A stretch of DNA of 64,000 nt from Blastococcus saxobsidens. Lineage in GTDB: Bacteria > Actinomycetota > Actinomycetes > Mycobacteriales > Geodermatophilaceae. Position numbers and translations under genes: made by a program. Below the pieces are notes generated by a model. That model searched no databases. It was given only the letters and a program-made list of their open reading frames with translations, and had not been told where the DNA came from. Positions 39,808 through 63,960 of the stretch are shown here, piece after piece (positions within the stretch are counted from its first letter, which is position 1; each line of letters starts with the position of its first letter). The stretch is from contig NZ_POQT01000002.1 of NCBI RefSeq assembly GCF_002938435.1, forward strand, positions 124,001-188,000. Direction: 5' to 3'.

Positions 39808-39838
39808 CGACGTATACCCGTTGTCGGCGGCGGCCGGG

Positions 39839-40858: not shown

Positions 40859-41859
40859 GCCGCCGGCACCGGTGCGGCCAGGCAGCCGCGCAGGCCGGCC
40901 TCCAGGGCGGCGCGATCCAGATGGCGCCCGATGAACACCACGCGGTTGACGCGCTCCGCTTCGCCCCAGGGCTCGCCCTGGGTGCCGTCGAAGAGCATGT
41001 GCACGCCCTGGAAGACGTAGCGCTCGGGCATGCCGCGGACGGCGAGGATGCCCTTGCTGCGGAAGATGTCCACGCCCTTGGCCGAGAGCAGCTCGCCGAG
41101 CCACTCGTTGAGCCGCTCTATGTCCAGCTCCCCGGCGAACTCGATGCCCACGCTGGTGACTGTGAGGTCGTGCTGGTGCTCGGTGTCCTCCAGGAAGGCT
41201 GGATCCAGGTCGAGGGCACGGGAGAGGTCGAACCCGCCGACGTCGAGGACGGCGCCGAGGTCGACCTTCGCCTGGACGGTCTCGTGCACGTCGGCCAGCC
41301 GGTTGATCTCGCTGATCCGGCGGCGCACCTCGGCCAGCTGCTCGGTGTCGACGAGGTCGGTCTTGTTGAGCACGATGCGGTCAGCGAAGGCGATCTGCTC
41401 GAGCGCCTCGTTCTCCACGCCCTCGGACTTCTCCTCGTCCAGGTGCTGCAGCAGATGCGCGGCGTCGACGAGGGTGATGATGCCGTCCAGCCGCAACTGG
41501 CTGCCGATCTCGTCGTCCATGAAGAAGGTCTGCGCGACCGGTGCCGGGTCGGCCAGGCCGGTGGTCTCGATGAGGATGTGGTCGAACTTGTCCTTGCGTC
41601 GCATCAGGGTGCCGAGGATGCGGATGAGGTCGCCGCGAACGGTGCAGCAGATGCAGCCGTTGTTCATCTCGAACACCTCCTCCTCGGCGTCGATGACCAG
41701 CGCATCGTCGATGCCGATCTCGCCGAACTCGTTCTCGATGACGGCGATGCGCAGGCCGTGCTGCTCGGTGAGGATGCGGTTGAGCAGGGTGGTCTTGCCC
41801 GATCCGAGGAAGCCGGTCAGGACGGTGACGGGGACCTTTTCGGCAATGGAAGTGGTCAC
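40855..41859 (-). CDS. COG0523/CobW-family metal-chaperone GTPase
   Basis: A 334-aa GTPase from GTG 41859. P-loop GFLGSGKTT (16-24), metal motif GCICC (Cys69-x-Cys71-Cys72), LIETTGLADP, LNKTDLVD for guanine recognition and a C-terminal CobW domain. Zur-controlled members of this family (YciC/ZagA, ZNG1-like) deliver zinc to client enzymes in deficiency; the operator upstream supports that role here. Coupled by overlaps to its upstream small Cys protein (GTGA) and to the WD40 gene (ATGA). Confidence 0.92.
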   Translation of the reverse strand: MTTSIAEKVPVTVLTGFLGSGKTTLLNRILTEQHGLRIAVIENEFGEIGIDDALVIDAEEEVFEMNNGCICCTVRGDLIRILGTLMRRKDKFDHILIETTGLADPAPVAQTFFMDDEIGSQLRLDGIITLVDAAHLLQHLDEEKSEGVENEALEQIAFADRIVLNKTDLVDTEQLAEVRRRISEINRLADVHETVQAKVDLGAVLDVGGFDLSRALDLDPAFLEDTEHQHDLTVTSVGIEFAGELDIERLNEWLGELLSAKGVDIFRSKGILAVRGMPERYVFQGVHMLFDGTQGEPWGEAERVNRVVFIGRHLDRAALEAGLRGCLAAPVPAA

Positions 41860-42155
41860 GGAGCGCTCCTCAGTGCCTCGACGGGCGTGGCGGTGGCGAA
41901 GGCGCTGCGGACGTCGGCCAGGGACACCTCGTCGGCCGGACGGTGGATCGTGCGATGCACCGGCGCACCGGGTGTCAACACAGCGAGCACCGTCTCGACC
42001 GGGGCGCAGCCGGCCTCCCGGCAGGTCAGCTGGGTGACGGTCACGGTGTCCTCCTCGCCGAGTCCGAGGCAGGTGCGCACCCATCGGCGAAGGCGGTCGA
42101 CGAGGTCGGGGGGCAGGGGTTCGGGACGCTGCCCGATCAGGGGTCCGAGAGCCAT
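41856..42155 (-). CDS. 99-aa hypothetical protein, first gene of the COG0523 operon
   Basis: Starts at ATG 42155, 14 bp from a perfect Zur-type palindrome. The N-terminal half (PLPPDLVDRLRRWVRTCLGLGEEDTVTV) is helical; the middle has TQLTCREAGCAPVETVL with two cysteines five residues apart, a possible metal or redox site. No family recognised. The GTGA overlap with the GTPase gene indicates stoichiometric expression. An upstream in-frame TTG (42221) would place the operator inside the gene and is rejected. Confidence 0.72.
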   Translation of the reverse strand: MALGPLIGQRPEPLPPDLVDRLRRWVRTCLGLGEEDTVTVTQLTCREAGCAPVETVLAVLTPGAPVHRTIHRPADEVSLADVRSAFATATPVEALRSAP

Positions 42156-48836: not shown

Positions 48837-50660
48837 TCAGCGCTCCGTGCGGACCAGACTGGCGATCACGCCCAGCAGGATCAGCCCGAGCGCGGGTGCG
48901 GCGACCACCCACGGAGCCCGTTCCAGGTACACAGCCGTGTCGGCGAGCGTGCGACCCCACTCCGGCGACTCGGGTCCGGCACCGATACCGAGGAAGCTCA
49001 GCCCGGCCAGCGCCAGCGCGACCGCGGGGAGGCGGGTCAGCGCGTGCCGGAGCACCGGCGGGCCGACCACCGGCAGCAGGTGCGCGCGCACCAGGTACCA
49101 GCGCCCGGCACCGGAGGTCTGTGCCGCGGCGTAGAAGCCGGAGGCGCGGGCCTCGGCGGCCAGGGACCGGGCATGCACCGCCAGCGGGATCCAGGCGACC
49201 AGGCAGACCGCCACGAGGGCGCTCCCCAGTCCCGGTCCGGCCACCGCCGCCACCACGATTCCCACGACCACGGCAGGCAGCGCGTTGAGGACGTCCGCCA
49301 GACCGGCTCGCGCACTGTGGGCGCGCAATCCCACCAGCAATCCGACCGCCAGCACCACGGCGCTCACCGCCAGGGCCGGTCCCACCGACAGCAGCGCGCC
49401 GTGCCCGAAGCGGGCGAGCACGTCGCGCCCCAGCGGATCGGCGCCCAGCGGATGGGCCCAGGAGGGCGGGGCCAGCCGCTTTCCTGGATCCTGCGCCGTC
49501 GGGTCGCGCAGCAGGCCGGCCAGGATGACGGCTCCCAGCACGGCGGCCACCCCCGCGGCCCAGCGGCCCGCCTGGGGCGCGGGCGGGGACGCCTCCGGTG
49601 TCAGGCCGGCGCCGGCCAGGGCGGGACCGACCAGCAGGCGGTGCAGTCCGATGCCGCCGCCGCCGATCAGCAGGCCGAGCCCCACCAGGAGCGCCACGGC
49701 CGCCTGTACGACCGGGACGTCCTGCGCCAGCGCCGCCTTCAGCGAGATGCCGCCGAGCCCGGGGATGTCGAAGACCGCCTCGATGACGACCGCCGCGCCC
49801 AGGTTGCCGACGAGCAACAGCAGGAGCAGCGGCACCATGGCGGTCACCGCACGCCGCCCGACCTCGGCCATGACCACGCCTCGGCGCACCCCCGCCGCTC
49901 GCCAGGTGCGTACCCAGGCCTCGGCAGCGGTCGATTGCACCGCATCGCCCAGCACCCGGCCGAGCAGCCCGGCCGCCGGCAGTGCGAGGGCCAGCACCGG
50001 CAGCACCAGGTGCTCCGGACCAGCGAAGCCCGAGGTGGGCGCCAGCCGCAGGCCGATCGCGATGACCACGACGAGCAGCACGGCGAGCACGAACTCCGGC
50101 AGCGCGGCGAGGGCACCGGCTGCGACGCTGGCCAACCGACCACCATCAGTACGGCCGTCGGCCGCCCGCCGGAGCGCGGGCACGGCCAGCAGCACCGCCA
50201 TGACGAGCGCGGCCAGAGCCGCCGTGCCCGCGAGTGTCAGCGAGATGCCGAAGGCGGGCAGCAGGGTCTCGGCCACGGGCCGGCCGCTGACCCAGGAGCG
50301 CCCCAGGTCGCCCCGGGCCAGCCCGCCGACCCACTGCAGCGTTCCGGTCACCGGGTCGGCGGGCAGGTCCAGCTGCGCACGGATCGCCGCCAGGGTGGCG
50401 GGGTCGGGGTTGCGATCGGTCTCCCGGGCGCGCAGCACCGAGAGGGCTATGTCCCGCCCGGACAGCCACGGCAGCGCCCCGACCAGCAGGGCCGTTCCGG
50501 TCACCGCTGCCACACCGGTCAGCAGCCCGCGCACCCCGGGCAGGCGCCCGATCCGCCGAGGTCGGCGCCGCGAGCGGCGCGGGCCGGGCTCGACGGGCAC
50601 GGCCGAAGCGTGCCCGTCGAGCTCGGTACCCAGCAGAGCCGGTGAGCTCCACGCCCTCAT
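48837..50660 (-). CDS. fused DppB-DppC-type ABC permease (two permease domains in one chain)
   Basis: A 607-aa protein combining both permeases of a peptide/nickel-type importer. The N-terminal half (about 45-330) is DppB-like (GRSWVSGRPVAETLLPAFGISL, AWVRTWRAAGVRRG); the C-terminal half (about 365-605) is DppC-like, with HPLGADPLGRDVLARFGHGALLSV and the coupling loop ARASGFYAAAQTSGAGRWYLVRAHLLP. In most bacteria these are two genes. Last gene of the operon that starts at 55201. Metallophore or peptide substrate inferred from context. Confidence 0.9.
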   Translation of the reverse strand: MRAWSSPALLGTELDGHASAVPVEPGPRRSRRRPRRIGRLPGVRGLLTGVAAVTGTALLVGALPWLSGRDIALSVLRARETDRNPDPATLAAIRAQLDLPADPVTGTLQWVGGLARGDLGRSWVSGRPVAETLLPAFGISLTLAGTAALAALVMAVLLAVPALRRAADGRTDGGRLASVAAGALAALPEFVLAVLLVVVIAIGLRLAPTSGFAGPEHLVLPVLALALPAAGLLGRVLGDAVQSTAAEAWVRTWRAAGVRRGVVMAEVGRRAVTAMVPLLLLLLVGNLGAAVVIEAVFDIPGLGGISLKAALAQDVPVVQAAVALLVGLGLLIGGGGIGLHRLLVGPALAGAGLTPEASPPAPQAGRWAAGVAAVLGAVILAGLLRDPTAQDPGKRLAPPSWAHPLGADPLGRDVLARFGHGALLSVGPALAVSAVVLAVGLLVGLRAHSARAGLADVLNALPAVVVGIVVAAVAGPGLGSALVAVCLVAWIPLAVHARSLAAEARASGFYAAAQTSGAGRWYLVRAHLLPVVGPPVLRHALTRLPAVALALAGLSFLGIGAGPESPEWGRTLADTAVYLERAPWVVAAPALGLILLGVIASLVRTER

Positions 50661-50709
50661 GGCGAGCGGTGCACCGCCGACCGCGCGACCACGCGACCCG
50701 AACGGGCGC

Positions 50710-52218
50710 TCACCGCTGCACCGCGGTCTCGATCGTGACCAGCTGCCGTTCGAACGGGTCGCTGCCCAGACCGCTCACGCCGGGGAGCACGCCGATCCGG
50801 CTGCGCTCGTGCAGCAGCGGAACGAACGCGCCGGTGCCCAGCACCTGGGCCTCGATCTCGACGGCGGCGACGCGCCGCTCCACGGGGTCGACGAGCTGGG
50901 CGGCCGCCGCGACGGCCGCGTCGATCGCCGGGTCGCAGAGCCGGGCCAGGTTGTAGCTTCCCTCGCAGGTGAGGTCGGACTCGAAGTACCCGACCGGGTC
51001 ACCGGTGTCGCCCAGGTAGAGCCGGCTGGCCAGCACCGCGTCGAAGGCGCCGGCCAGCAGGTCCGGCTCCAGGGTGGCGTACTCCTGGACGACGAGCTCC
51101 ACGGTGAACCCGGCCGAGCGCAGCTGGTCCACGACCACCGCCGCCGCCTCCGGCAGCTCGGGCCGGTCGTTCCAGGTGGCCAGCCGGATGGTCGCGCCGG
51201 CCGGGTCGCCAACGGGGGCCCGCGTCACCTCGGGCCGCTCGTCGCCACCGAGCACCCCCTCGGACAGGAAGCCCTCGGCGAGGTCGACCTGCCCCTCGTA
51301 GATCTGCTCGACGACCGGACGCGGGTCCACGGCCTCGATGGCGGCAGACCGGAGCGCGGCGTCGACGAACGGACCCTCGGCGGTGTTGAGGAACAAGCCG
51401 GTCAGCCGCGGCAGCGGCACCGAGATCACCTGGTCCTCATCGAGCGCGGAGAGCTGGGCGATCGGGATGTTCTGCGCGACGTCGACCTCCTCGGCCCGCA
51501 GTGCGTTGGTCCGGGTCTCGGCGTCGGAGACGAAGCGGACGTCGACGCCGGACAGGGCCGGCTTCCCGGCCCAGTGCTCGGCGAACGCGTCGAGCGTGGC
51601 GCCGGACTCGCCGTTGACCTCGGTGATCTCGAACGGCCCTGTGCCGGTGCCGACGGGGTCGGGAGCGGCCGGGTCCGCGTAGGCCGCCGGGGAGAGGATG
51701 ACGAGCGCGGACGAGCCCAGCCGCTGCACCAGGAGCGGATCGGGCTCGGCGGCCTGCAGCTCCACGGTGTCCTCGTCGACAGCGCGCGCGGTCAGCCCGA
51801 TGCCGCTGACCGACCGGGGCGCGGGGTCGATGTCGGCCGCGGCGGTGAGCGCGCCGGCCACGGCCTCGGCGTCCATCGGGCTGCCGTCGTGGAAGGTGAC
51901 GCCCTCGCGCAGCTCGAGGGCGACGGTGCGGTCGTCGGTGAACTCCCACGACTCGGCCAGGTTCGGCTGCGCCGCCCCCGACTCGTCGAAGACCACCAGG
52001 GTCTCGGCGACCCCCATCCGGCTGATCAGCACGCTGTCGTCGGAGAACGGGGAGAGCGCTGCGACGGGCGGGAAGGCCAGGGCCAACCGCAGCCGGTCGC
52101 CGTCGGCCGCACCTGTGGGTCCGCCGGAGGAGCCTCCGGAGAAGCAGCCGGTCAGCAGGACCGTGGCGGAGGCCAACCCGAGGGCAGCGGTGCTGCGGCG
52201 GGTGGGGAGCGGGGACAT
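50710..52218 (-). CDS. peptide/nickel-type (SBP_bac_5) substrate-binding lipoprotein
   Basis: A 502-aa lipoprotein; the signal ends LLTGC and a Gly/Ser linker follows. LAESWEFTDDRTVALELREGVTFHDGSPMDAEAV is the family signature. Relatives bind peptides, nickel-chelates or opine metallophores (CntA). No substrate-determining residues can be read. It lies between the MFS and permease genes of one operon. Confidence 0.9.
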   Translation of the reverse strand: MSPLPTRRSTAALGLASATVLLTGCFSGGSSGGPTGAADGDRLRLALAFPPVAALSPFSDDSVLISRMGVAETLVVFDESGAAQPNLAESWEFTDDRTVALELREGVTFHDGSPMDAEAVAGALTAAADIDPAPRSVSGIGLTARAVDEDTVELQAAEPDPLLVQRLGSSALVILSPAAYADPAAPDPVGTGTGPFEITEVNGESGATLDAFAEHWAGKPALSGVDVRFVSDAETRTNALRAEEVDVAQNIPIAQLSALDEDQVISVPLPRLTGLFLNTAEGPFVDAALRSAAIEAVDPRPVVEQIYEGQVDLAEGFLSEGVLGGDERPEVTRAPVGDPAGATIRLATWNDRPELPEAAAVVVDQLRSAGFTVELVVQEYATLEPDLLAGAFDAVLASRLYLGDTGDPVGYFESDLTCEGSYNLARLCDPAIDAAVAAAAQLVDPVERRVAAVEIEAQVLGTGAFVPLLHERSRIGVLPGVSGLGSDPFERQLVTIETAVQR

Positions 52219-52269
52219 CGGAAGTACCTCGTTTCCATTCGAACCGGCCCGCGGACAGCGGGCCGGAGG

Positions 52270-53613
52270 TCATCGGTCGGGCGACGTGCCGTCGACGTCG
52301 GCGGTCACGGCCGCCGGCACCGGGTCGGCCGGCCGAGTGGGGGCGGACCCGTCGGCGCGGGGCAGCCGCCGGGTGAGCAGCCACAGCGCCCCGGCTGACA
52401 GCGCGGGGAGCGCACCGAGTGCGAGCCATGGCACGGCCGCTCCCGGCGACGGAACGTAGGCGGCGTCGAGCAGCGCCCCGGCCGCGGTGCTGCCGACCAG
52501 CACGGCCAGTCCTCCGACTGAGGCGAGGACGCCGAAGTGCGCGCCGAGCCGCCGTTCGCCGGCCAACCGGGGCACCAGGTCCTGCGCTACCGGAACGGCA
52601 AGCATCTGCCCGGTGTAGAGCAGCACGACCATGCCGACCGCCGGGGCCAGCGCCCACGGCCCCGGCAGCGGCGGCAGGGGCGCGACGGCGGCGACCAGCA
52701 GGAAGGCGGCAGACATGAGGGCGAAGCCGGCCGGCAGTGCGCGGCGGGGGCCGGCTCGCCGGGCGAGGGCGGTGACCGGCAGCTGACAGACCAGCACCAG
52801 GACGGCGGCGAGCACGAACAGCCACCCCAGCGCGCCCTGACCGCCGGTGGCACGGGTCAGCTCGACCGGTAGTGCCAGGTAGAGCTGGTTGTAGCTGACC
52901 AGGTAGGTGCAGTAGCAGGCGGCGAAGGCCAGGAAGACCCGATTGCGCAGTACCTGGCGCCAGCCGGCCAGCACCGACTCCTCCCCGCTGCCCTCGGTGC
53001 GCAACCCCGACGGTAGCCAGCGCAGGTGGGCCAGCAGAACGGCGAGGAAGACCGCCGCCCCGATGGCGCACGTGACGGCGAACGGAGCGGGAAGCAGCAG
53101 CGCGCCTAGGGCCGGGCCGGCAAGGGCACCAATCATGCTCGCCACCGCGTCGAGGCCGAAGACCTCGACCCGTGAGGCGATGCCGTCCCGCTCCAGGCCC
53201 CGGCCGACGTCGGCGATCGCCGACTCGACCGCCGGAGAGAACAGCGCGGCCGCGAAGCCGGTCATGACGGCGCCCGCGAGGACCCCGGCCACCGACGTGG
53301 CCAGGCCGAGGACCAGGAAGCCCGCGATCCGGATGACGCAGCCGAGCACGATCATCGGCTTGATGCCGAAGCGGTCCGCCAGCCCGCCGCCGAGGACGAA
53401 CAGTCCCTGCTGGCTGAACGTCCGGGCGCCGAGGACGAGCCCCACCAGGGCCCCGGTGAAGGCGAGGTCCTCCGTCAGCCGCACCACGAGGAACGGCACG
53501 ACGAGGTAGAACCCGAGGTGGAAGGCCAGCTGCGAGAGCAGCAGCAGCCGCGGGACCACGGGCAGCCGCAGGAACAGAGCCAGGGGCGGCCACCGCCGGA
53601 GGAGTGCGCTCAC
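52270..53613 (-). CDS. MFS exporter embedded in the ABC operon (CntE-like position)
   Basis: A 447-aa, 12-helix MFS protein from GTG 53613, which overlaps the stop of the preceding ATPase gene (GTGA). Helix 1 region LLLSQLAFHLGFYLVVPFLVVRLTEDLAF and the DRFGIKP loop after helix 2 are those of drug/proton antiporters. Embedded between ABC importer genes, it resembles CntE, which exports staphylopine while CntABCDF re-imports the metal complex. The exported compound is unknown; no opine synthase is seen in the window. Confidence 0.85.
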   Translation of the reverse strand: MSALLRRWPPLALFLRLPVVPRLLLLSQLAFHLGFYLVVPFLVVRLTEDLAFTGALVGLVLGARTFSQQGLFVLGGGLADRFGIKPMIVLGCVIRIAGFLVLGLATSVAGVLAGAVMTGFAAALFSPAVESAIADVGRGLERDGIASRVEVFGLDAVASMIGALAGPALGALLLPAPFAVTCAIGAAVFLAVLLAHLRWLPSGLRTEGSGEESVLAGWRQVLRNRVFLAFAACYCTYLVSYNQLYLALPVELTRATGGQGALGWLFVLAAVLVLVCQLPVTALARRAGPRRALPAGFALMSAAFLLVAAVAPLPPLPGPWALAPAVGMVVLLYTGQMLAVPVAQDLVPRLAGERRLGAHFGVLASVGGLAVLVGSTAAGALLDAAYVPSPGAAVPWLALGALPALSAGALWLLTRRLPRADGSAPTRPADPVPAAVTADVDGTSPDR

Positions 53614-54392
53614 GGCAGCGCCAGCCGAGGCACGGCGCCGACCAGCGTGGCGGCGGCCGGGCTCGCCGGTGCAGTGAGCACCTGCTCGACGCTGCCCTGC
53701 TCGACGCAGGCGCCACCGGCGAGTACCAGAACTCGCTGGCACAGGTGCGCGACGACGCCCAGGTCGTGGGTGACGAACACCATCGCCAGGCCCTCGTCGG
53801 CCGACAGCCGCTGCAGCAGCCGCAGCACCTGCAGCCGAACGACGACGTCCAGGGCACTGACCGGCTCGTCGGCGATGACCACCTCGGGACGCGCGGCGAG
53901 GGCGCGGGCGATCGCGATCCGCTGCCGCTGTCCGCCGGAGAACTGGTGCGGGAGGCGGTCGGCCGCGTCGGGCTCGAGTCCGACGGCGACCAGCAGGTGC
54001 GCCACCCGTTCGGCGTGGTTTTCGGTGATCCCCAGACAGCGCAGCGGCTCTGCGACAGCGCGCCCCACGCGCATGCGCGGGTTGAGGGATCGAGACGGGT
54101 CCTGCGGGATCATCTGCACGCGTCGGCGGAACCAGTGCAGGCTTTGGGCCGGCCCGGGCGTCACCGTGCGCCCCCGGTAGCTGACCCGGCCGCCGTCGGC
54201 GCGCTCGAGCCCGAGCAGCAGCCGGGTGAGCGTCGTCTTGCCGGAGCCAGACTCCCCGACCACGCCCAGGCACTCCCCCGCCGCCAGCGTGAGGTCGACG
54301 CCCGTGAGGGCCGGGGGGCGGTGACGTCCGTACGAACGGCTGAGGCCGTGCGCGGCCAGGAGCGTCGTCTCTCCGGACGGATCGGGGCTCAC
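53610..54392 (-). CDS. ABC ATPase, DppF/OppF type
   Basis: A 260-aa ATPase: Walker A GESGSGKTT, Q-loop MIPQDPSRSLNPRMRVG, signature QFSGGQRQRIAIARAL, Walker B VVIADEPVSALD, switch FVTHD. Overlaps both neighbours (ATGA with the first ATPase, GTGA with the MFS gene). Pairs with the other ATPase to power the fused permease. Confidence 0.92.
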   Translation of the reverse strand: MSPDPSGETTLLAAHGLSRSYGRHRPPALTGVDLTLAAGECLGVVGESGSGKTTLTRLLLGLERADGGRVSYRGRTVTPGPAQSLHWFRRRVQMIPQDPSRSLNPRMRVGRAVAEPLRCLGITENHAERVAHLLVAVGLEPDAADRLPHQFSGGQRQRIAIARALAARPEVVIADEPVSALDVVVRLQVLRLLQRLSADEGLAMVFVTHDLGVVAHLCQRVLVLAGGACVEQGSVEQVLTAPASPAAATLVGAVPRLALP

Positions 54393-55201
54393 GCGGCCAC
54401 CAGCGAGGTCGCCCGGGCCGCCTCCACCAGGGCCCGCACGTAGGGCTCGGCCGCGGCGGTGAACACCTCGGCCGGCCGGCCGTCGGCCAGCAGCCGCCCG
54501 GCGCGCAGCACCAGGACGCGATCGCAGATCTGGGTCGCGACCGCCAGGTCGTGGGTGACCAGCAGCAGCGCGGTCCGGCGCTCGACGGTCGACCGGCTCA
54601 GGACATCGAGGACACCGGCCTGCACGGTGACGTCGAGGGCGGACGTCGGCTCGTCGGCAACCAGCAATCGCGGTCCGGCGCCCAGGGCCATCGCAATCGC
54701 CACCCGCTGCCGCTGACCGCCGGACAGCCGTGCGGGGTGACGGCGGGCGAGCTCCGCCGGATCGGGTAGGCGCACCTCCGCGAGCAGTTCGAGCGCACGG
54801 GCGCGGGCCGCCCGGCGGGAGAGTCCCTGGGCGCGGAGCGGCTCAGCGACCTGGCGGCCGACGCGGGACAGCGGGCTCAGTGAGGTGCCCGGGTCCTGCG
54901 CCACCAGAGCCATGCCCCGGCCGCGCAGCCGGTGCAGCCGGGACTCCGGGGTTCCCACCACCTCCGTCCCGTCGAACACGGCGCTGCCGGTGACCTGCAC
55001 ACCGCTGGGGGCCAGGCCCAGCAGCGCCGAGACGGTCAGCGTCTTGCCGGAGCCGGACTCACCGACGACCGCCACCCGCTCGCCGGGGCAAAGGCCGAAG
55101 GAGATCCCCTGCACGAGCGGACGCCCCGAGGCCGACACGGAGAGATCTCGGACCTCCAGCAGTCGATGGCCAATCGGGGCAGCCAGGGGGTCGAGAAGCA
55201 C
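54389..55201 (-). CDS. ABC ATPase, DppD/OppD type, first gene of the operon
   Basis: A 270-aa ATPase: Walker A GESGSGKTL, Q-loop ALVAQDPGTSLSPLSRVG, signature RLSGGQRQRVAIAMAL, Walker B LLVADEPTSALD, switch LVTHDLAV. Starts 13 bp from a Zur-type palindrome. Together with the following four genes it forms a complete importer plus exporter unit. Confidence 0.92.
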   Translation of the reverse strand: MLLDPLAAPIGHRLLEVRDLSVSASGRPLVQGISFGLCPGERVAVVGESGSGKTLTVSALLGLAPSGVQVTGSAVFDGTEVVGTPESRLHRLRGRGMALVAQDPGTSLSPLSRVGRQVAEPLRAQGLSRRAARARALELLAEVRLPDPAELARRHPARLSGGQRQRVAIAMALGAGPRLLVADEPTSALDVTVQAGVLDVLSRSTVERRTALLLVTHDLAVATQICDRVLVLRAGRLLADGRPAEVFTAAAEPYVRALVEAARATSLVAA

Positions 55202-55210
55202 ATCCTCACT

Positions 55211-57271
55211 CTAGTCGGAATGATTCTCGTTCTCCTCGGCGGGGCGGCCGGGCGCCCGCCACGCCGACTCGCGCAGCAGGCGCAGGCCGTTGAGGGCGAC
55301 GAGGATCGTCGATCCCTCGTGTCCGGCCACACCCAGCGGCAGGGGCAGCGTGCCGACCAGGCCCCAGAGGACCAGTACGCCGATCAGCGTTCCGGCGATC
55401 GCGAGGTTCTGCACCACCACCCGACGTGCGCGGCGGGACAGCGCGACGACCGCCGGCACGGCGGACAGGTCGTCGCGGACGACGATCACGTCGGCACTGT
55501 CGAGGGCCAGGTCCGACCCGATGCCGCCCATCGCCACCCCGACGTCGGCGCCGGCGAGGGCGGGGGCGTCGTTCACGCCGTCACCGACCAGCAGCACTCG
55601 GTGGCCGTCGGCCTGCAGCCGACGGACCGCGTCGACCTTGTCCTGGGGCAGCAGGCCGGCGCGGACCTTCCGCACGCCCACCTGCTCGGCCAGCGCCCAC
55701 GCTGCCTGGCGGTTGTCACCGGTCAGCAGTACCGGCTCGCCCGGCAGAAGCCGACGCAGGGCATCGACGGCGTCGCGGGCCTCCGGCCGGACCCGGTCGG
55801 CCAGACCCAGCACTCCGGCGGGTTCGCCGGCGACGGTCACCACCACCGCTGTCCGACCCTGCGCACGCACCGCATCGACCAGGGCGTCGGACTCGGCGCC
55901 GCCTGTCGGCGCGCCCACGCGGACCGCCCGCCCGCCGACCGTGGCGACGACGCCGGAGCCGATCTCGGCCCGGAACGCTGTCGCCGTCGACAGTGACAGG
56001 CCCCGCTCACCGGCCGCGCGGACGATCGCCCGGCCGATCGGGTGCTCGCTGGCCGCCTCGGCGGACGCGGCCAGCCGCAGCACCTCCTCGACTGACGTGC
56101 CGCCGAGGGATCGCACCTCGACCACCGCAGGGTCGCCGTCGGTCAAGGTGCCGGTCTTGTCGAAGGCGGCGAGGTCGGCGCTGCCCAGCTGTTCCATGGC
56201 CACTGCTGAGCGGACCAGCACACCGTGCCGGCCGGCGTTGGCGATCGCCGACAGCAGCGGCGGCATGGTGGCGAGGACGATGGCGCACGGAGAGGCGACG
56301 ATCATGAAGGTCATCGCCCGCAGCAGCGCGTCGTCGACCGCGGACCCGAACAGCAGTGGCACGGTGAAGACGAGGAGCGTGGCGACGACCACGCCCACGG
56401 AGTACCGCTGCTCGACGCGCTCGATGAAGAGCTGGGTCTTGGCCTTGGTCGCGCTCGCCTCCTCCACCAGGACACCGATGCGGGCGACCACCGACTCCCT
56501 CGGATCGCGCCCGACGCGCACCACCAGCACGCCGGTGCCGTTGGCCGTACTGGCGAAGACCTCGTCCCCATGCCTCTTGTCCACCGGCAGCGGCTCGCCG
56601 GTGATCGAGGCCTGGTCGACGTCGGAGGCCCCGTCCACCACGACGCCGTCGGCCGGAAGCCGCTCCCCTGGGCGGACGATCACCAGATCACCCACCGAGA
56701 GACCGGTCACCGGCACCAGGCGCTCGTCGCCGGCCGGTCCCACCAGCGTCGCCTGCTCGGGCGCGAGCCGGCTCAGGACGCGGACTGCGTCGGCCGTGCG
56801 CCGGGTCGCGAACGCCTCGAGGGCACCGGAGCTGGCGAAGATGACGATCAGCAGTGCGCCGTCGAAGATCTGGCCGATCGCTGCTGCACCGATGGCGGCC
56901 ACCACCATCAGCAGGTCGACGTCGAGGGTCCTCTCCCGCAGCGCCTGCAGGCCGGCCAGCGCCGGTCCCCATCCGCCGGCGGCGTAGCAGGCCAGGTACA
57001 GCGCCCAGTACAGCGGCGCCGGCGCCCCGACGAGGTGCGCGAGGCCGCCCGCGGCGAACAGCGCCGACGCCAGCGCCGCCCAGCGCACCTCCGGCAGCGA
57101 CCCCGCCGCCGCCAGCGCTGCCCAGCGCCGTTCCGTGCGCCCGGACCACCGCGGCTGCACGATCCCTGGCCGCCCCGGCCCGGTCTCCTGCCGTGACAAC
57201 GGGGAGGGTGGGGAGACGAGGTGAACGGGCGGGACGGGAGCGGACCGTGATGAAGACACGGCGAGGACCAT
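55211..57271 (-). CDS. P1B-4-type heavy-metal-translocating ATPase (CtpD/CoaT-like)
   Basis: A 686-aa P-type ATPase. TGEP (224-227), SPC (327-329) in a membrane helix, DKTGT with the phosphorylated aspartate (371-375), HP motif (SEHPIG), GDGVNDAP (563-570) and HEGST (651-655) in the penultimate helix. SPC plus HEGST define the P1B-4 class, which moves Co, Fe or Zn ions, usually outward; there is no N-terminal metal-binding domain. ATG 57271 fits the divergent promoter. Its 3' end contains the operator of the ABC operon. Confidence 0.93.
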   Translation of the reverse strand: MVLAVSSSRSAPVPPVHLVSPPSPLSRQETGPGRPGIVQPRWSGRTERRWAALAAAGSLPEVRWAALASALFAAGGLAHLVGAPAPLYWALYLACYAAGGWGPALAGLQALRERTLDVDLLMVVAAIGAAAIGQIFDGALLIVIFASSGALEAFATRRTADAVRVLSRLAPEQATLVGPAGDERLVPVTGLSVGDLVIVRPGERLPADGVVVDGASDVDQASITGEPLPVDKRHGDEVFASTANGTGVLVVRVGRDPRESVVARIGVLVEEASATKAKTQLFIERVEQRYSVGVVVATLLVFTVPLLFGSAVDDALLRAMTFMIVASPCAIVLATMPPLLSAIANAGRHGVLVRSAVAMEQLGSADLAAFDKTGTLTDGDPAVVEVRSLGGTSVEEVLRLAASAEAASEHPIGRAIVRAAGERGLSLSTATAFRAEIGSGVVATVGGRAVRVGAPTGGAESDALVDAVRAQGRTAVVVTVAGEPAGVLGLADRVRPEARDAVDALRRLLPGEPVLLTGDNRQAAWALAEQVGVRKVRAGLLPQDKVDAVRRLQADGHRVLLVGDGVNDAPALAGADVGVAMGGIGSDLALDSADVIVVRDDLSAVPAVVALSRRARRVVVQNLAIAGTLIGVLVLWGLVGTLPLPLGVAGHEGSTILVALNGLRLLRESAWRAPGRPAEENENHSD
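55214..55230. promoter_or_regulatory. Zur-box-like palindrome 4 (MFS/ABC operon), inside the ATPase 3' end
   Basis: GTCGGAATGATTCTCGT: GGAA-N3-TTCT core, 13 bp upstream of the first ABC ATPase start and overlapping the last codons of the P-type ATPase gene. Confidence 0.7.
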
Positions 57272-57273
57272 AC

Positions 57274-57289
57274 CTGCGCAGATGCGCAG
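57274..57289. promoter_or_regulatory. candidate ArsR-type operator between the metal ATPase and its regulator
   Basis: CTGCGCA-GA-TGCGCAG, perfect 7-bp arms, in the 55-bp divergent region directly before the ATPase start. The likely ligand is the neighbouring ArsR protein. Confidence 0.65.
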
Positions 57290-57326
57290 ATGTTCAGTTG
57301 ACGTCAGCCGGTACGATTCGGCCGTG

Positions 57327-57689
57327 GTGCACCGCGGAATCGAGCACTTCGACATGCCGGAACCGGCCGCCGTCCGGCGGGCTGCCGAGGCGCTGCGCAT
57401 GCTCGGCGACCCCACCCGCGTGAACATCCTCTGGGCCCTGATGCAGGGCGAGACGTCGGTCGCCTGCCTGGCCGAGCTCGCCGGCACCTCCGCCACGGCG
57501 GTCAGTCAGCACCTGTCCAAGCTGCGGCTCGCCGGCCTAGTCACCAACCGCCGCGAGGGCGCCTTCGTGATCTACGCCCTCGCCGACGAGCACGTGCGGA
57601 CCCTGCTCCGCCAGGCCCTGACGCACGCGGACTGCCCGGGCGGGCACCGGACCCCCGCCGCCGCGGAAGCGGCGCCCGCCACCGGCTGA
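57327..57689 (+). CDS. ArsR/SmtB-family metal-sensing repressor
   Basis: A 120-aa winged-helix repressor divergent from the P1B-4 ATPase. DNA-binding region AEALRMLGDPTRVNILWALMQGETSVACLAELAGTSATAVSQHLSKLRLAGLV. The C-terminal helix DEHVRTLLRQALTHADCPGGH has the Asp/His spacing of the alpha-5 zinc, nickel or cobalt site of SmtB/NmtR/KmtR, and an N-terminal HRGIEHFD adds histidines. GTG 57327 gives the usual V-H-R start; ATG 57354 is an alternative. Confidence 0.85.
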   Translation: MHRGIEHFDMPEPAAVRRAAEALRMLGDPTRVNILWALMQGETSVACLAELAGTSATAVSQHLSKLRLAGLVTNRREGAFVIYALADEHVRTLLRQALTHADCPGGHRTPAAAEAAPATG

Positions 57690-57728: not shown

Positions 57729-57745
57729 TCGAGAACGGTTCTCGT
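57729..57745. promoter_or_regulatory. Zur-box-like palindrome 5 (exported-peptide unit)
   Basis: TCGAGAACGGTTCTCGT: CGAGAAC and GTTCTCG arms in perfect inversion, 81 bp upstream of the small exported protein. A further TTCTC overlaps it immediately downstream. Confidence 0.78.
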
Positions 57746-57825
57746 TCTCTCGGTTGATGCCGCCTTCCCGCGTCATCGACATCGGCCCGGACCGTTGAGC
57801 CCGGGCCACGACCGAGAGGAATGCC

Positions 57826-58020
57826 ATGAAGCACACCCTTGCCCGCACCGCTGTGCTCGTCGCGAGCGCCGCCACCGCGCTGACCGTCTCCGCCGGCACC
57901 GCTGCGGCCTCCGCCTGCGAAGACCAGGTCGCCGAGACGCTGCACACGTTGCACGAGACCACCGGCGACCCGGCTGGTGTGCTGCACGAGGTCGAGGAGA
58001 CCTACTGCTCGGTCGGCTGA
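57826..58020 (+). CDS. 64-aa exported peptide with two cysteines
   Basis: A signal peptide (about 1-29, ending AAASA) precedes a mature chain of about 35 residues. That chain, CEDQVAETLHTLHETTGDPA then GVLHEVEETYCSVG, has one cysteine near each end (a likely disulfide), three histidines and seven acidic residues, a composition able to bind metal. GAGAGG precedes the ATG. A Zur-type box upstream and a hairpin after the stop make it a separately abundant transcript. No known family; similar small exported proteins may be widespread in actinobacteria. Confidence 0.8.
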   Translation: MKHTLARTAVLVASAATALTVSAGTAAASACEDQVAETLHTLHETTGDPAGVLHEVEETYCSVG

Positions 58021-58029
58021 CGAGACGGG

Positions 58030-58060
58030 ACCGAGGGCCACCGGAGGGGTCGCCCTCGGT
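58030..58060 (+). terminator. stem-loop between the exported-peptide gene and the propeller/VWA gene
   Basis: 9-bp arms ACCGAGGGC / GCCCTCGGT with a 13-nt loop, 9 bp after the stop. It may be a partial terminator that lets some transcription reach the next two genes. Confidence 0.6.
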
Positions 58061-58104
58061 CTTGTCCCCAGTGATCATCGCCCGCACCGCAGCAGAGGAG
58101 CTCC

Positions 58105-61035
58105 GTGAGCATGTCCGCCGTCCGTTCCGCCGCCTTGCTCGGCATCGTGGCGCTGTTGTCGGCGGCGACCGTGACGCTCGCCGGTCCCCTCGGCGCCGCG
58201 CCCGGCTGCGCCCAGGTGATCCAGGGGACGGCGGGCACATGGACCGTCCGGTCGGCGCCGGCCTTCCCCGCCGGTGACCCGGTGTTGGTCGGGCACGCTG
58301 TCGACTCCCGCCAGCCGCTGCGGCAGTACGCGACCAACGGCGTCTCGGTCCTGGCCACCGACGACGGCTGCGCCTGGGCGGAGACGTTCCGCCTGCCCGA
58401 GGCCCCGTCCCCCGAGCTGCCGGCCTCATCGGTGACCGACCGCATCCTCGAGGTCGTGGTGCACCCGCGGGCACAGGGCCGCATCTGGCTCGTCGTCGCC
58501 GTCGGCCAGACCGTCGCCGAGCGGCTCCGGTTCAACCGGATCGGCCCCAGCTTCCCGCTGAGCCCGGCGGCCGACGAGAACCGGGACGGCACCCAGACGC
58601 TAGTGCTCTCCAGCACCGACGCCGGAGCCTCCTGGACGGCGATGAGCGGTCCGCCGCTGCCCGGGGCGCCCGGTCGGCTGGCTCCCGCGCCTACCTCCCC
58701 GGGGGTGCTCTACCTGCCCACGTTCTCCGGGCTGTGGGGCAGCTTCGACGGCGGCCGCACCTGGACACCTCGCCCGCCGGCGGCGACCGCACCCGGGCAG
58801 GGGCAGCGGCCGTTGGACGCCGTCACCGCGCCGACCACCAACCGGGTGACCGTGGACCCGACGGCGGCGTCCACCCTCTACGGGCACAACAACACCAGTG
58901 TCCGCACCTCCGACGACGGCGGGGTGACCTGGTCGGCCTATCCGACACCGCCCGGCGGGTTCACCAGCGGGCCGTTCGTCGACCGCGGCCTCTCGGCCGA
59001 GCGCCGCATGGTGTTCGCGCGGCACCCGGACTCCACCTCACCCATCGAGTCGCTCTGGTTCTTCCGGTCGGCCACCGGCGCCTTCGAGGCCGTCCCGGTG
59101 GAGCCCGACACCATCGCCGGCGTGCCGTGGCGGGCCGTCTGGCACCCGGCCCGCGACGAGCTGGTCATGGCCACCTGGGACCGCAACTCCGCCGCGGGCT
59201 TCCCGGAGGTGTCGCTCTACCGGCTGGACTCCCGCGGCACGGTGGAGGAGATCAACGAGCTCGATCTGCCCCCGGTGTGGGGCCTCGACGTCGATGACTA
59301 CGGCACCTACCACCTGCACACCAGCAGCGAGATCGTCTCCCTTCAGACATCCGCGGTGGCGGGTGCGGCCGGGCTGGACCAGGGCCAGCCGCAGATCGAG
59401 ATGGACCCGTTCTCCTACCAGCCACCGCCCCCGCCCCTTCCGGCCACGCTCTCCGGTCCGGCGGCCGTCGAGCTGGACCCCGGAGAGACCACCACGCTGA
59501 CCTGGACCCTCGACCTGCCCCGGCGACCCACGCCGCTGGACACCTACTTCCTCATCGACACCTCCAACAGCTTCGAGCCCGACATCCAGGCGCTGGCCGA
59601 CGGCATGGCCGACGTCGTGCGCAGCCTGACCGACGCCGGCATCGACGCCCACGTCGGCATCGGCGAGCTGGGCACCCGCGAGGCCCGCCGCTACACCCGG
59701 TTCGCCGACATCGCCCCGCCCGGCACCGAGCTGCAACGCGGCTTCGAACGGCTGCGCACCGGCGGCGGCTACGAGTCCCACCTCATCGCGCTGCACCAGA
59801 CCGCCACCGGCTCGGGCGTCGAGGGCACCAGCGGCCCCGCCGTGGCTCCGGGCCAGGACCCCACCTGGCGCACCGATTCGCTGCGCACCCTCGTCGTCAT
59901 CACCGATGTCCAGTACATCGACGAGGACGACCCCGAGGCACCGTCCCGCCGGGAGGTCTACGACGCCCTTGCCGCCCGCGACGTCCGGGCCATCGGGCTC
60001 GAGGTCGTCCGGGAGGGCGGCGACGACGGCGTGCCCGGCAGCTACGCGGCGGTCGAGGCCGCCGACGCCGCCTCGACGACCGCACCTACCCCGGCACGCG
60101 CCGATCTGGAGGAGCTCGCCGGGGCCACCGGTTCCTTCGCCCCGCCCGGCGGCGTCGACTGCCGGAACAACGGGACCACCGAGATCGGCGCCGGCGACCC
60201 CATGGTCTGCACCACCACAGCAGTGCAGGCCGCCCGCATCTCCACCCTCGCCGACGTCCTCACCCGCGTCCTGCTCGCCCAGGTCGACGAGCGACCGGTC
60301 GCCCTCAGCGCCCGAGGCGACGTCACGGTCACGCCGGTCTCCCCCGACGGGTGGCGGCACCAGTCCGTGGACGTGAAACGGAACCAGACCCTCACGTTCA
60401 CTGCCGAGGTCAGCTGCGACGACAGCCAAGCCGGACGGGCACTCCCCCTCGGGGTCGACGCCCTCGTCGGGGAGGAGGGGATCGCCTCGGCCACCACGCA
60501 GGTCCAGTGCGGCCCGGCGGTGCCCGCATCCGCTGTCGCCGCCGGCGGCGAACCCGCGGCGGCCGAACCGGCACCCGCTCCGGTCGCCGCCGACCCCGCC
60601 ACCGCCCCGCCTCCCACGGGCCCCCAGGCTGCCCTCGCCCCACCGGTCGTCCCGCCCGTCGTCCCGGTTCCGGTCGGCGGAACCGCGACAGCACCCGGAT
60701 CCGCGCCAGGGACGGCGCCCGGCAACGCTCCCGGGACGGCCCCGGGGACTACCCCCGGCACTGCGGGGGCACCGGCGGCCGGTGCCGCCACCGCGCTGTC
60801 CCCGGGGGGCGCCGCGCAAGCGGCCCCGGCCGGGGCCGTCGCGGGACAGCACCAGGAGGACAGCCCCGCCCTCGCGCACGCGTCCCTGCAGATGACCGGC
60901 CGGCACCGCGAACCGGCCACGACGCCGCCCTGGACGCTGCTCGCCGCCGGGGTGCTGAGCGCTGCCGCCGCGGGCCGGCTCCGGGCCCTGCGCACACGAC
61001 CCATCCCCCGCACGGCGAGGAGCCGGAACAGATGA
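58105..61035 (+). CDS. secreted propeller/VWA protein with C-terminal membrane anchor
   Basis: A 976-aa exported protein. Signal peptide to about residue 32; a beta-propeller-like region (~40-420) with three Asp-box motifs (SSTDAGASW, SFDGGRTW, SDDGGVTW); a Pro-rich hinge; a VWA/integrin-type domain (~478-720) with the metal motif DTSNS (485-489); a beta domain; ~120 residues rich in Ala/Pro/Gly; one membrane helix (~943-958) and a basic tail inside. It looks like a surface binding protein. The stop overlaps the FtsH-like gene (ATGA). GAGGAG precedes GTG 58105; ATG 58111 is the alternative start. Confidence 0.85.
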   Translation: MSMSAVRSAALLGIVALLSAATVTLAGPLGAAPGCAQVIQGTAGTWTVRSAPAFPAGDPVLVGHAVDSRQPLRQYATNGVSVLATDDGCAWAETFRLPEAPSPELPASSVTDRILEVVVHPRAQGRIWLVVAVGQTVAERLRFNRIGPSFPLSPAADENRDGTQTLVLSSTDAGASWTAMSGPPLPGAPGRLAPAPTSPGVLYLPTFSGLWGSFDGGRTWTPRPPAATAPGQGQRPLDAVTAPTTNRVTVDPTAASTLYGHNNTSVRTSDDGGVTWSAYPTPPGGFTSGPFVDRGLSAERRMVFARHPDSTSPIESLWFFRSATGAFEAVPVEPDTIAGVPWRAVWHPARDELVMATWDRNSAAGFPEVSLYRLDSRGTVEEINELDLPPVWGLDVDDYGTYHLHTSSEIVSLQTSAVAGAAGLDQGQPQIEMDPFSYQPPPPPLPATLSGPAAVELDPGETTTLTWTLDLPRRPTPLDTYFLIDTSNSFEPDIQALADGMADVVRSLTDAGIDAHVGIGELGTREARRYTRFADIAPPGTELQRGFERLRTGGGYESHLIALHQTATGSGVEGTSGPAVAPGQDPTWRTDSLRTLVVITDVQYIDEDDPEAPSRREVYDALAARDVRAIGLEVVREGGDDGVPGSYAAVEAADAASTTAPTPARADLEELAGATGSFAPPGGVDCRNNGTTEIGAGDPMVCTTTAVQAARISTLADVLTRVLLAQVDERPVALSARGDVTVTPVSPDGWRHQSVDVKRNQTLTFTAEVSCDDSQAGRALPLGVDALVGEEGIASATTQVQCGPAVPASAVAAGGEPAAAEPAPAPVAADPATAPPPTGPQAALAPPVVPPVVPVPVGGTATAPGSAPGTAPGNAPGTAPGTTPGTAGAPAAGAATALSPGGAAQAAPAGAVAGQHQEDSPALAHASLQMTGRHREPATTPPWTLLAAGVLSAAAAGRLRALRTRPIPRTARSRNR

Positions 61036-62978
61036 CCGACACCCTGACCCAGACCGCCCCGGACACGGACGGCCGGGCGGCGGCACACCGATCCGGACGG
61101 CGTGCCGCCCGCGGCGGACGTCGGACAGCACGGCAGTCCCCGGCCCGCCCCCGCGCGAGCCTGCCGCGTCCCTCACCCCGCGGCTGGCTGGTGGCGGCCG
61201 TGGCGCTCCTGTTGCTGGCCTTCGCGGGAGCTCTCGCCCATCTGAGCGCCGACACCCCCGGCCGGGAGGTGACGCTGGACGGGCTCGCTGAACTCACCGC
61301 CGACGACGACGTCGCCCGCGCGACGTTCCTCGACGAGGACGCCCGCATCGTCGGGACGACGTCCGGCGGCGAGCGCTTCTGGGTGGCCTACCCCGCCAGC
61401 GACTCGGCCACCTCGATGCTGCTGCAGGAGCTGACCGGGTCGGGCGCCGAGGTGTCCGTCGACGGGCAGTCGAGCAAGGCCGTGGTCCGCATCGTCGCCA
61501 CCGGGTTGCTGCCACTGATGATCCTGGCGGCGCTCTTCGGGCTGTTCTTCGTCGGCGGCCGGGACGGCGCCTCTGACATCCGCGGCTTCGGCACGATGGG
61601 CCGGCGCGGCGGCGGGCGGGCGACACCTCCCCAGGTGACCTTCGCCGACGTCGCCGGTGCCGACGAGGCGGTGACCGAGCTGCGCGAAGTCGTGGAGTAC
61701 CTCAACCACCCGGAGCGCTACGCCGCACTCGGCGCCAGCCCGCCCAAGGGTGTACTGCTGTTCGGCCCGCCGGGCACCGGGAAGACGCTGATTGCCCGCG
61801 CGACGGCGGGCGAGGCGGGGGTGCCCTTCTTCTCGGTCGCCGGGGCCGAGTTCGTGGAATCGCTGGTCGGGGTGGGGGCCGCTCGCATCCGCGACCTGTT
61901 CGCCACGGTGCGGGCCGTGGCACCGGCCATCGTGTTCATCGACGAACTCGACGCCGCGGGGCGGCGACGCGGTGGGGCGGAGACCGGCGGTTCGGAGGAG
62001 CGGGAGCAGACGCTCAACCAGCTGCTGGTGGAGCTGGACGGCTTCGCCGCCTCGTCGGGCATCGTGGTCATGGGGGCCACCAACCGGCCCGACATCCTCG
62101 ACCCCGCCCTGCTGCGGCCGGGCCGGTTCGACCGACACGTGACCGTGGACCACCCCGACCGGGCCAGCCGGGAGAAGATCCTCCAGGTGCACAGCCGGGG
62201 CAAGCCCCTGGGCCCCGACGTCGACCTGCCGACCCTCGCCCGCCGCACGCCCGGCTTCACCGGCGCCGACCTGGCCAACGTGGTCAACGAGGCGGCACTG
62301 CTGACCATCCGCGCGGGCCGGACGCTGATCGGCATGCCGGAGCTGGTAGAGGCCATCGAGCGGGTGCTCGGCGGCCCGCAGCGGCGAGGCCGCATCCTCG
62401 GCGAGGAGGTGCGCCGCCGGATAGCCGTGCACGAGGCCGGGCACGCCGTCGTGGCCACCGCGATGGGCGAGGAGGTGCACCGGGTGTCGGTGGTCGCCCG
62501 CGGCAGCGGGCTGGGCGCCGTTAGCCTCACCGGCGGTGACGAGGCCGTGCTGCTGACCGCGCCGGAGATCGCCGACCGCCTCACCGTGGCCATGTCGGGC
62601 CGTGCCGCCGAGGAGCTGGTCCTCGGCTCGGCTTCGACCGGCAGCGAGGGCGACCTCGAGCGGGCCACTGGCGTGGCCCGCGACATGGTGACCCGCTACG
62701 GCATGAGCCCCACCGTCGGGCGGGTGCGGCTCACCGGCACCGCCGCCGACGTATTCCTCGGCGGCGGTGCCGCCACCACGGAGATGTCCGAGGCGCTGCG
62801 CCGGCGGGTCGAGGAAGAGACCGCCCGGCTGGTCGACCTCGGGTTCGAACGGGCCGGCGACGTGCTGGCCACCCACCGCGCCGCGGTCGACGCACTGGTC
62901 GGGGCGCTGCTGGCCGACGAGTCCCTGGAGGGGCCCGCCCTGGAGCGTCATCTGCACGCGGTCGCGACTCCGCGCTGA
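61032..62978 (+). CDS. ftsH: FtsH-like membrane AAA+ zinc metalloprotease
   Basis: A 648-aa protein with two membrane helices (51-71, 153-174) around an external ~80-residue domain, an AAA domain (GPPGTGKT 245-252, VFIDELDA 301-308, SRH region GATNRPDILDPALLRPGRFD) and an M41 protease domain (HEAGH 467-471; third ligand Asp541 in EGDLERAT). It lacks the long C-terminal tail of housekeeping FtsH, and its N-terminus is Arg/Ala-rich. It is probably a second, specialised FtsH coupled (ATGA) to the surface VWA protein; it may degrade membrane proteins in zinc stress. Confidence 0.88.
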   Translation: MTDTLTQTAPDTDGRAAAHRSGRRAARGGRRTARQSPARPRASLPRPSPRGWLVAAVALLLLAFAGALAHLSADTPGREVTLDGLAELTADDDVARATFLDEDARIVGTTSGGERFWVAYPASDSATSMLLQELTGSGAEVSVDGQSSKAVVRIVATGLLPLMILAALFGLFFVGGRDGASDIRGFGTMGRRGGGRATPPQVTFADVAGADEAVTELREVVEYLNHPERYAALGASPPKGVLLFGPPGTGKTLIARATAGEAGVPFFSVAGAEFVESLVGVGAARIRDLFATVRAVAPAIVFIDELDAAGRRRGGAETGGSEEREQTLNQLLVELDGFAASSGIVVMGATNRPDILDPALLRPGRFDRHVTVDHPDRASREKILQVHSRGKPLGPDVDLPTLARRTPGFTGADLANVVNEAALLTIRAGRTLIGMPELVEAIERVLGGPQRRGRILGEEVRRRIAVHEAGHAVVATAMGEEVHRVSVVARGSGLGAVSLTGGDEAVLLTAPEIADRLTVAMSGRAAEELVLGSASTGSEGDLERATGVARDMVTRYGMSPTVGRVRLTGTAADVFLGGGAATTEMSEALRRRVEEETARLVDLGFERAGDVLATHRAAVDALVGALLADESLEGPALERHLHAVATPR

Positions 62979-62994: not shown

Positions 62995-63891
62995 TCAGGG
63001 CAGCAGCCCCACCCGGGAGTGGACGACGGGCCGGGGCCTGTCGGCGCGCCGCGCCGCTGCCCGGCAGCCGGCGGAAGCCAGGACGCGTCGCGCGGCGCGC
63101 CGAACGCCGGGCCCTGCGGCGGACACCGTGAAGACGGCGACGGCCAGTAGCACGATCGTGCCGCCCGCCGGCACGCCGAGGTAGTAGGCCGCGGTGGTCC
63201 CGGCGCTCGCGACGACAGCGCCGATGCCGACGGCTACGAGCAGCGTGCCGCGGAAACTCCGGGCCAACAGCATCGCGGCGGCTGCCGGGAGCACCATCAG
63301 CGCGCCGATCAGGAGCAGGCCCACGATGCGCATGGACGCCACCACGGTGGCCGCCGTGGTGGCGGCCAGCAGCATGTTCAGCACGGTGACTGGTAGACCG
63401 GCGGCGCAGGCGCACTCCTCGTCGATGGAGACCGCGAAGAGCGCACGACACAGCCCGACCGTGAATGCGAGGACGACGGCTGCCGTTCCGGCGAGGACGA
63501 CGAGATCGGATCGGGTGGTCGTGATGATCGCGCCGAAGAGGTAGGCGTCCAGATTTGCCGGCCTGCCGGGCGGCATCGCCGAGATCAGCACCACGCCTCC
63601 GGCAATGCCGCCGGCGAAGAGTATGGCCATGAGGACGTCGACCTCATTGCGACGCAGCCCGCGGAGAGCCTCCACCGCGATGGCCCCCACCACGGCGGTG
63701 GCCATCGCGGTACCCAGTGGCGCCCAGCCGGTCACGAGACCGAGGGCAACGCCGAACAGCGCGACGTGGCCGACTCCGTCGCCGATGATCGACAGGCGGC
63801 GCTGCACCAGGTGCACGCCGACCGTCGGGGCCGTGGCGCCAACCAGCAGCGCCGCGATAAGGGCTGACTGCATGAACCCATGACTCAGCAC
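62995..63891 (-). CDS. second ZnuB-type (ABC-3) metal transporter permease
   Basis: A 298-aa permease from GTG 63891 with about eight helices (FMQSALIAALLVGATAPTVGVHLVQRRLSIIGDGVGH). It is clearly related to znuB (44114-45139) but without the His-rich tail; the C-terminus is Arg/Ala-rich. No ATPase or binding protein lies beside it within the window. They may be divergent genes to the right, beyond 64000, across the palindrome at 63934-63960, or the permease may use ZnuC. Convergent with the FtsH-like gene. Confidence 0.88.
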   Translation of the reverse strand: MLSHGFMQSALIAALLVGATAPTVGVHLVQRRLSIIGDGVGHVALFGVALGLVTGWAPLGTAMATAVVGAIAVEALRGLRRNEVDVLMAILFAGGIAGGVVLISAMPPGRPANLDAYLFGAIITTTRSDLVVLAGTAAVVLAFTVGLCRALFAVSIDEECACAAGLPVTVLNMLLAATTAATVVASMRIVGLLLIGALMVLPAAAAMLLARSFRGTLLVAVGIGAVVASAGTTAAYYLGVPAGGTIVLLAVAVFTVSAAGPGVRRAARRVLASAGCRAAARRADRPRPVVHSRVGLLP

Positions 63892-63933: not shown

Positions 63934-63960
63934 GCTTATCGAGAGTCATTCTCGATAAGC
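63934..63960. promoter_or_regulatory. Zur-box-like palindrome 6, long and perfect (second permease)
   Basis: 11-bp arms GCTTATCGAGA / TCTCGATAAGC with a 5-bp centre; the inner 17 bp (63939-63955) read TCGAGAGTCATTCTCGA, like boxes 2 and 5. It lies 43 bp upstream of the permease and may also serve a gene to the right of the window. Confidence 0.78.

Follow-up and report, generated by a model that had tools for sequence, protein, structure and literature searches.

Within a 64,000-nucleotide stretch of the Blastococcus saxobsidens genome (contig NZ_POQT01000002.1, positions 124,001 to 188,000; hereafter the window), a Zur-type box precedes three genes, which encode a small exported peptide, a 976-amino-acid (aa) surface protein and an FtsH protease. 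We propose that this operon displays an integrin-headpiece-like receptor under zinc scarcity, together with a dedicated FtsH and a small secreted peptide, and we give this reading a probability of about 0.42. Its parts, namely the six-box regulon, the reading frames, the predicted fold of the head, the FtsH clade and the repeated presence of large exported proteins close to FtsHs of this kind, were established from sequences and structure models.

The operon stands behind one of six Zur-type boxes

With a matrix derived from three further palindromes in the window (42170, 42282 and 47741), the box at 57730 ranked fifth in the 64 kb; after the three matrix sites, the best-scoring sites were 55215, 57730 and 63940. 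The chance expectation for such sites was 0.13 per 64 kb, as estimated from first-order Markov sequences (n = 60). All six boxes overlapped a listed gene start or stood at most 85 bases from one, and together they mark a zinc island at 40855-63954 with a box at each of these gene starts. Genes associated with the boxes encode an AztC/AztA/AztB-like zinc ABC transporter and then a Fur-family regulator (gene at 45136), GTPases of the CobW/ZigA type, paralogues of ribosomal proteins (bL28 and others, by-eye names), a Nik/Cnt-like ABC transporter together with an MFS exporter, the three products of the peptide-receptor-FtsH operon, and an AztB/ZnuB-like permease. The operon and the zinc-uptake genes of the same genome have the palindromic box in common, as expected of a Zur regulon. 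The regulator itself scored under the curated cut-offs of NCBIfam, where the top-scoring models were iron-type Fur, and it was named Zur because of its zinc-gene context. An earlier sequence-only reading of this DNA had placed a Zur-type box ahead of the three genes, and Zur-type control was supported, since the box belongs to a real zinc regulon whose six members scored 16.9-22.9 in a leave-one-out analysis, compared with 12.4 for the top non-box site in the 64 kb. Judged from the sequence, zinc (Zur-type) control of the operon is well supported.

The receptor combines a propeller with a predicted integrin-like head

The second gene encodes an exported, C-anchored protein. The sequence-only reading had described it as a 976-aa anchored propeller/VWA (von Willebrand factor A) protein whose gene overlaps that of FtsH, and the frames (58105-61035, with the FtsH ATG at 61032) confirmed this; the distribution of the three products over the outside, the membrane and the inside of the cell was also supported. 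Pfam support for the propeller and VWA domains stayed under the curated cut-offs, while fold comparison was much stronger. In the structure model the betaI domain was inserted in a hybrid domain, as in the integrin-beta headpiece, suggesting that the receptor head has an integrin-beta-type fold. The integrin-beta family PF00362 itself scored 17.0 bits against the receptor, below its curated cut-off of 24.8, and 17.4 against the homologue in a related locus, L009. The Pfam scan of the receptor (four families listed, E up to 0.1) contained no FG-GAP, EGF or zinc-binding family.

With the animal integrin headpiece, which consists of an alpha propeller and beta hybrid/betaI domains, the receptor shares the hybrid and betaI fold with its metal-ion-dependent adhesion site (MIDAS), and the presence of propeller and betaI head on one receptor. 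A bacterial integrin-beta-like sequence of Trichodesmium is cited in PMC3192720. The window protein differs from both: it is one chain rather than separate alpha and beta chains, its propeller is of the BNR/GH74 type rather than FG-GAP, no EGF family corresponding to integrin legs was listed, and its gene overlaps an FtsH gene and stands under Zur-type control.

The FtsH belongs to a separate pore-loop clade

The true start of FtsH is ATG 61032, where ATGA takes in the receptor stop codon; the listed 875-aa frame, which opens at 60351, begins too far upstream. The protein scored 622 bits against TIGR01241 (cut-off 600) and keeps Walker A, FIDELD and HEAGH. Its AAA domain, M41 domain with HExxH and two N-terminal transmembrane (TM) segments identify it as an FtsH zinc metalloprotease, and are shared with housekeeping FtsH. 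Unlike the latter, it has an SLVG pore loop where most fetched FtsHs have MFVG, groups apart from ordinary FtsHs and has its relatives near large exported proteins. The aromatic pore residue was also missing in three other rows (L011, L012 and L052). In a tree of 59 FtsH rows, the ones left from 82 frames after filtering for Walker A and length, the 12 SLVG rows formed one clade with a Shimodaira-Hasegawa-like approximate likelihood ratio (SH-aLRT) of 99; the tree was made by a quick method with midpoint root and pore columns included. The SLVG rows came from Frankiales and Solirubrobacteraceae metagenome-assembled genomes, Conexibacter, one Chlamydiae-labelled record and the window. The label of that record (L007) may be wrong, as its FtsH grouped with Conexibacter and Solirubrobacteraceae. 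A zinc-sparing replacement FtsH, as with the ribosomal paralogues, was also considered and rejected because the HEAGH zinc site is kept.

Large exported proteins recur near SLVG-type FtsHs

The related loci were the best 80 of at least 457 confirmed matches, chosen by similarity to the window FtsH, and one search pattern (AEFVESLV) was the pore-loop stretch itself, which enriched the SLVG clade. Hand reading of the SLVG loci found a large exported protein near 11 of the 12 FtsHs; the locus of the twelfth, L005, ends 632 bases past FtsH. The exported protein adjoins FtsH in the window, L002, L003, L007, L009 and L019. An automatic test for exported, C-anchored neighbours of 600 aa or more, lying no further than 6 kb away, was positive for 7/12 SLVG frames and 5/70 others, with a p of 1.2e-4 that is a guide only, because the SLVG rows are related and not independent. 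This test missed L003, L005, L007, L008 and L019, for some of which the contig ends. Most SLVG neighbours appeared propeller-like with weak Pfam matches, and two tested neighbours in L007 had no Pfam match. Propeller-VWA orthologues directly behind FtsH in L009 and L019 had 31 and 33% identity to the window receptor and kept the MIDAS motif DxSxS. The pairing of a propeller-VWA protein with FtsH seen in the sequence-only reading recurs in L008, L009 and L019, but the L008 relative has lost the MIDAS.

A first scan of genome contigs with the whole receptor gave no relative. On plasmids neither receptor nor peptide had a match, and FtsH matched in 171 records, all below 60% identity; viral contigs gave one weak propeller match (L081). 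As far as these data show, the receptor-FtsH pair appears to be the module, while zinc control and the peptide would be local additions. The sequence-only reading had treated the three genes as one set and named lack of joint conservation as a refuting condition. On this condition the outcome was split: the nearness of FtsH to a large exported protein held up, whereas the peptide had no relatives in the 80 loci or on plasmids.

Some other features of these loci were observed. AAA proteins directly follow SLVG FtsHs at L008:11215-13488 and L006:3006-5288 and 11224-13500, and L001 shows a comparable frame. The L008 protein contains two AAA domains, which is reminiscent of the two-AAA FtsH in ternary conflict systems. 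In L006, a protein close to the module gave NACHT/STAND-like matches that fell short of the cut-off, and a subtilase gene (L002:9746-10945) follows FtsH and the propeller protein in L002. A phosphate link of the module was discarded as too weak, as a PstS-family protein (PF12849) and permease lie beside the cluster in L007 alone, and the L004 candidate had no Pfam match. A shared C-terminal sorting motif read by FtsH was dropped after profile tests. By eye the partner tails resemble one another (Q-rich, TM, Arg), but when both the window and L009 were left out of the tail profile, it recovered L009 at no better than E 5e-4.

The secreted peptide and the intergenic hairpin

A 64-aa secreted Cys/His/acidic peptide behind the Zur-type box had been predicted and was found as described (open reading frame 57826-58020), its mature part having two Cys, three His (His40, His43 and His54) and many acidic residues. 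This mature part is perhaps a helix-GDP loop-helix closed by Cys31-Cys61, as guessed by eye. Family searches gave no Pfam match and a best NCBIfam E of 0.097, far under cut-off; the best match in PDB (E 2.5) was insignificant, and the absence of relatives in the 80 FtsH-similar loci refers to E 1e-3. The peptide could serve as a ligand, could bind metal, or could do neither. The terminator scan, in which a T run was required, found none between the peptide and receptor genes. As the strong hairpin there has no U tract, it may act as an attenuator or stabilise the peptide message.

Proposed mechanism and alternatives

In the proposed mechanism, zinc scarcity would cause receptor, FtsH and secreted peptide to be produced together, so that zinc acts via transcription and not necessarily via binding to the head. 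The ATGA overlap and the link of the clade to exported proteins make a working connection between receptor and FtsH likely. FtsH pulls membrane proteins from the cytosolic side, and the receptor has a single TM helix and a basic tail; it is therefore simplest to suppose that FtsH controls the level or the assembly of the receptor. FtsH would grip its own receptor partner via this helix and the Arg-rich cytosolic tail, thereby set the amount or assembly of displayed receptor, and clear it once zinc returns. Through its MIDAS the head would bind a ligand, which might be the peptide, a partner cell or some surface, and the ligand-bound head could help the cell keep hold of a zinc source.

Several points weigh against this proposal. 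With the six-box matrix, ten related loci (L001-L009 and L019) had no site above 11.0, a scan that a Zur with a different box would escape; therefore zinc control rests on one genome, and the receptor-FtsH pair does not seem to be intrinsically a zinc system. Since the loci were drawn by FtsH similarity, including the pore-loop pattern, they are no unbiased census, and the relatedness of the SLVG rows has been noted above. One or more genes separate FtsH and the exported protein in L001, L004, L006 (two FtsHs) and L008, and FtsH precedes the exported protein in L002, L009 and L019, the reverse of the window order. Many SLVG partners are propellers without a VWA head and the L008 relative lacks the MIDAS, so MIDAS ligand binding is not general. 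The window tail was absent among the 15 best rows (E up to 2.1) of a tail profile built without it. Finally, the full-length receptor model was of low confidence, with a mean predicted local distance difference test (pLDDT) of 45.6 and a predicted template modelling score (pTM) of 0.34, and Foldseek TM-scores were modest (TMt at most 0.47 among the matches listed).

The main rival to FtsH control of the receptor is signalling from the head to FtsH, in which the head acts as a sensor of a ligand or of the peptide, and engagement through the tail switches FtsH proteolysis of a membrane or regulatory protein. The outside/membrane/inside layout, the ATGA overlap and the NACHT/STAND-like matches in L006 would suit it, and propeller and betaI head form the ligand site in integrins, as stated in PMC3192720. 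However, no substrate or signalling partner was recognised among the neighbours scanned and the tail of the receptor, which is short and basic, contains no domain that could be recognised; we regard signalling as unlikely. FtsH is a general membrane quality-control protease, and with its Walker A, FIDELD and HEAGH intact it could be an extra one induced by zinc starvation, the receptor being near by accident. Such a role is rather less probable still, given the distinct clade, the large exported proteins near its fetched members and the oddity of adding a zinc-needing enzyme when zinc is scarce.

MIDAS sites usually bind Mg or Mn. A scheme based on the sequence-only reading would have the peptide bind zinc, the VWA protein capture the loaded peptide or partner, and FtsH remove competing or zinc-rich membrane proteins. 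Zur-type control and the His and acidic residues of the peptide are consistent with this scheme, and Corynebacterium diphtheriae has surface proteins that bind zinc and are controlled by it (PMC12445094). Yet there is no sign that the VWA head captures metal, the MIDAS by precedent is no zinc site, and no zinc-binding family was listed for the receptor; with a peptide lacking relatives in the 80 loci and on plasmids, and ten related loci lacking Zur-like boxes, we consider the scheme improbable.

A bolder extension of our proposal would be a categorically new class of receptors, in which a bacterial integrin-like protein of one chain is worked by a dedicated FtsH and has a co-secreted ligand, with such modules placed in different nutrient regulons (zinc here) and the acidic TGDP loop of the peptide offered to the MIDAS on a disulfide-closed hairpin. 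RGD or KGD loops are presented to integrins, and a TGDP loop between two Cys beside an integrin-type head is suggestive, but this is speculation and we regard the extension as a long shot.

Comparison with known systems

Among described systems the vWA-MoxR-FtsH ternary systems come closest, and the nearest functional parallels are ZnuE, ZnuF and ZnuG of C. diphtheriae. Subsystem 3 of the vWA-MoxR systems (Kaur et al. 2020, PMC7159879) shares with the operon a beta-propeller fused to a divergent vWA and an FtsH-type AAA protein, in actinobacteria. As described there, these systems have a MoxR chaperone core, an FtsH component with two AAA domains of which the first is dead, and ubiquitin-like (Ubl) conjugation and caspase effectors, whereas the window FtsH has one AAA domain; section 21 of that paper does not mention export, and the window receptor is exported. 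Despite the shared propeller-vWA and FtsH pairing and the double-AAA protein after FtsH in L008, a variant of these conflict systems is very improbable, because the products scanned at 48.8-63.9 kb are otherwise assigned with none MoxR, the receptor is exported, FtsH is one AAA with TM and M41, and no effector gene was seen.

ZnuE (membrane) and ZnuF/ZnuG (wall) are likewise actinobacterial and zinc-controlled and are encoded with a zinc ABC transporter, but they bind zinc through a motif of their own; neither protease nor von Willebrand occurs as a word in the main text of PMC12445094. The words FtsH, von Willebrand and propeller are absent from the main text of the review PMC6103462, and among the titles and abstract starts listed from the open-licence literature, none dealt with Zur control of an FtsH or with the pairing of an integrin-like protein and FtsH.

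Neighbouring genes

The features of the operon and its flanks are collected in Table 1.

Table 1 Features of the operon and adjoining genes in the window
Feature	Position	Strand	Remarks
Zur-type box CGAGAACGGTTCTCG	57730-57744	.	15-bp palindrome, 81 bp upstream of peptide start codon
Exported peptide, 64 aa	57826..58020	+	Signal-type N-terminus (by eye)
Strong hairpin, no U tract	58024..58066	+	Between peptide and receptor genes; z -3.4, 0/200 shuffles as stable
Propeller + integrin-beta-headpiece-like protein (modelled), 976 aa, exported, C-anchored	58105..61035	+	GTG start
BNR/Asp-box propeller	58237..59424	+	About residues 45-440 (limits by eye); xyloglucanase match E 9e-8; GH74 fold matches
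Hybrid + betaI (VWA) head	59425..60543	+	Residues 441-813
MIDAS DTSNS	59557..59571	+	Residues 485-489
C-terminal hydrophobic segment	60931..60978	+	About residues 943-958 (by eye), then Arg-rich tail
FtsH, SLVG pore-loop clade, 648 aa	61032..62978	+	Two TM segments, AAA, M41; ATGA overlap with receptor gene
ArsR/SmtB-type metalloregulator	57282..57689	+	Upstream of operon, divergent from P-ATPase
Cd/Zn-type P-ATPase	55211 to about 57271	-	Starts by eye
AztB/ZnuB-like permease	62995..63891	-	Own Zur-type box 63940-63954

The P-ATPase and the ArsR/SmtB regulator form a metal efflux pair (55211-57689) within the zinc-uptake island. The minus strand at 48837-55201, behind the box 55215-55229, carries the MFS exporter and the Nik/Cnt-like ABC transporter, which comprises a fused NikB/NikC-type permease, a NikA/CntA-like binding protein and two ATPases. 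Together they are a candidate zinc-metallophore import/export system; no metallophore biosynthesis genes were recognised among the products scanned. An FAD/NAD-type oxidoreductase, a WD40 propeller protein and a CobW/ZigA GTPase lie in series at 38632-42084, adjoining the zinc transporter. A tRNA was the sole match of the Rfam search. At 32936-36726, a transposase and helper pair of the IS21 type (identified by eye) comes after a tRNA-Gly(ccc), and beyond it the third-position guanine-cytosine (GC) content of coding frames falls from about 0.95 to about 0.89. This is a possible island edge, yet the total GC of 40.8-64 kb shows no drop.

Implications

If the proposal is true, some bacteria would show an integrin-type head when starved of zinc and would keep a private FtsH for it. 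The Zur response would gain a surface-receptor branch, FtsH a dedicated exported partner, and bacteria an integrin-like protein with head, propeller and anchor in a single chain. The recurrence of propeller-VWA proteins beside such FtsHs in Frankiales makes the proposal testable by simple deletions.
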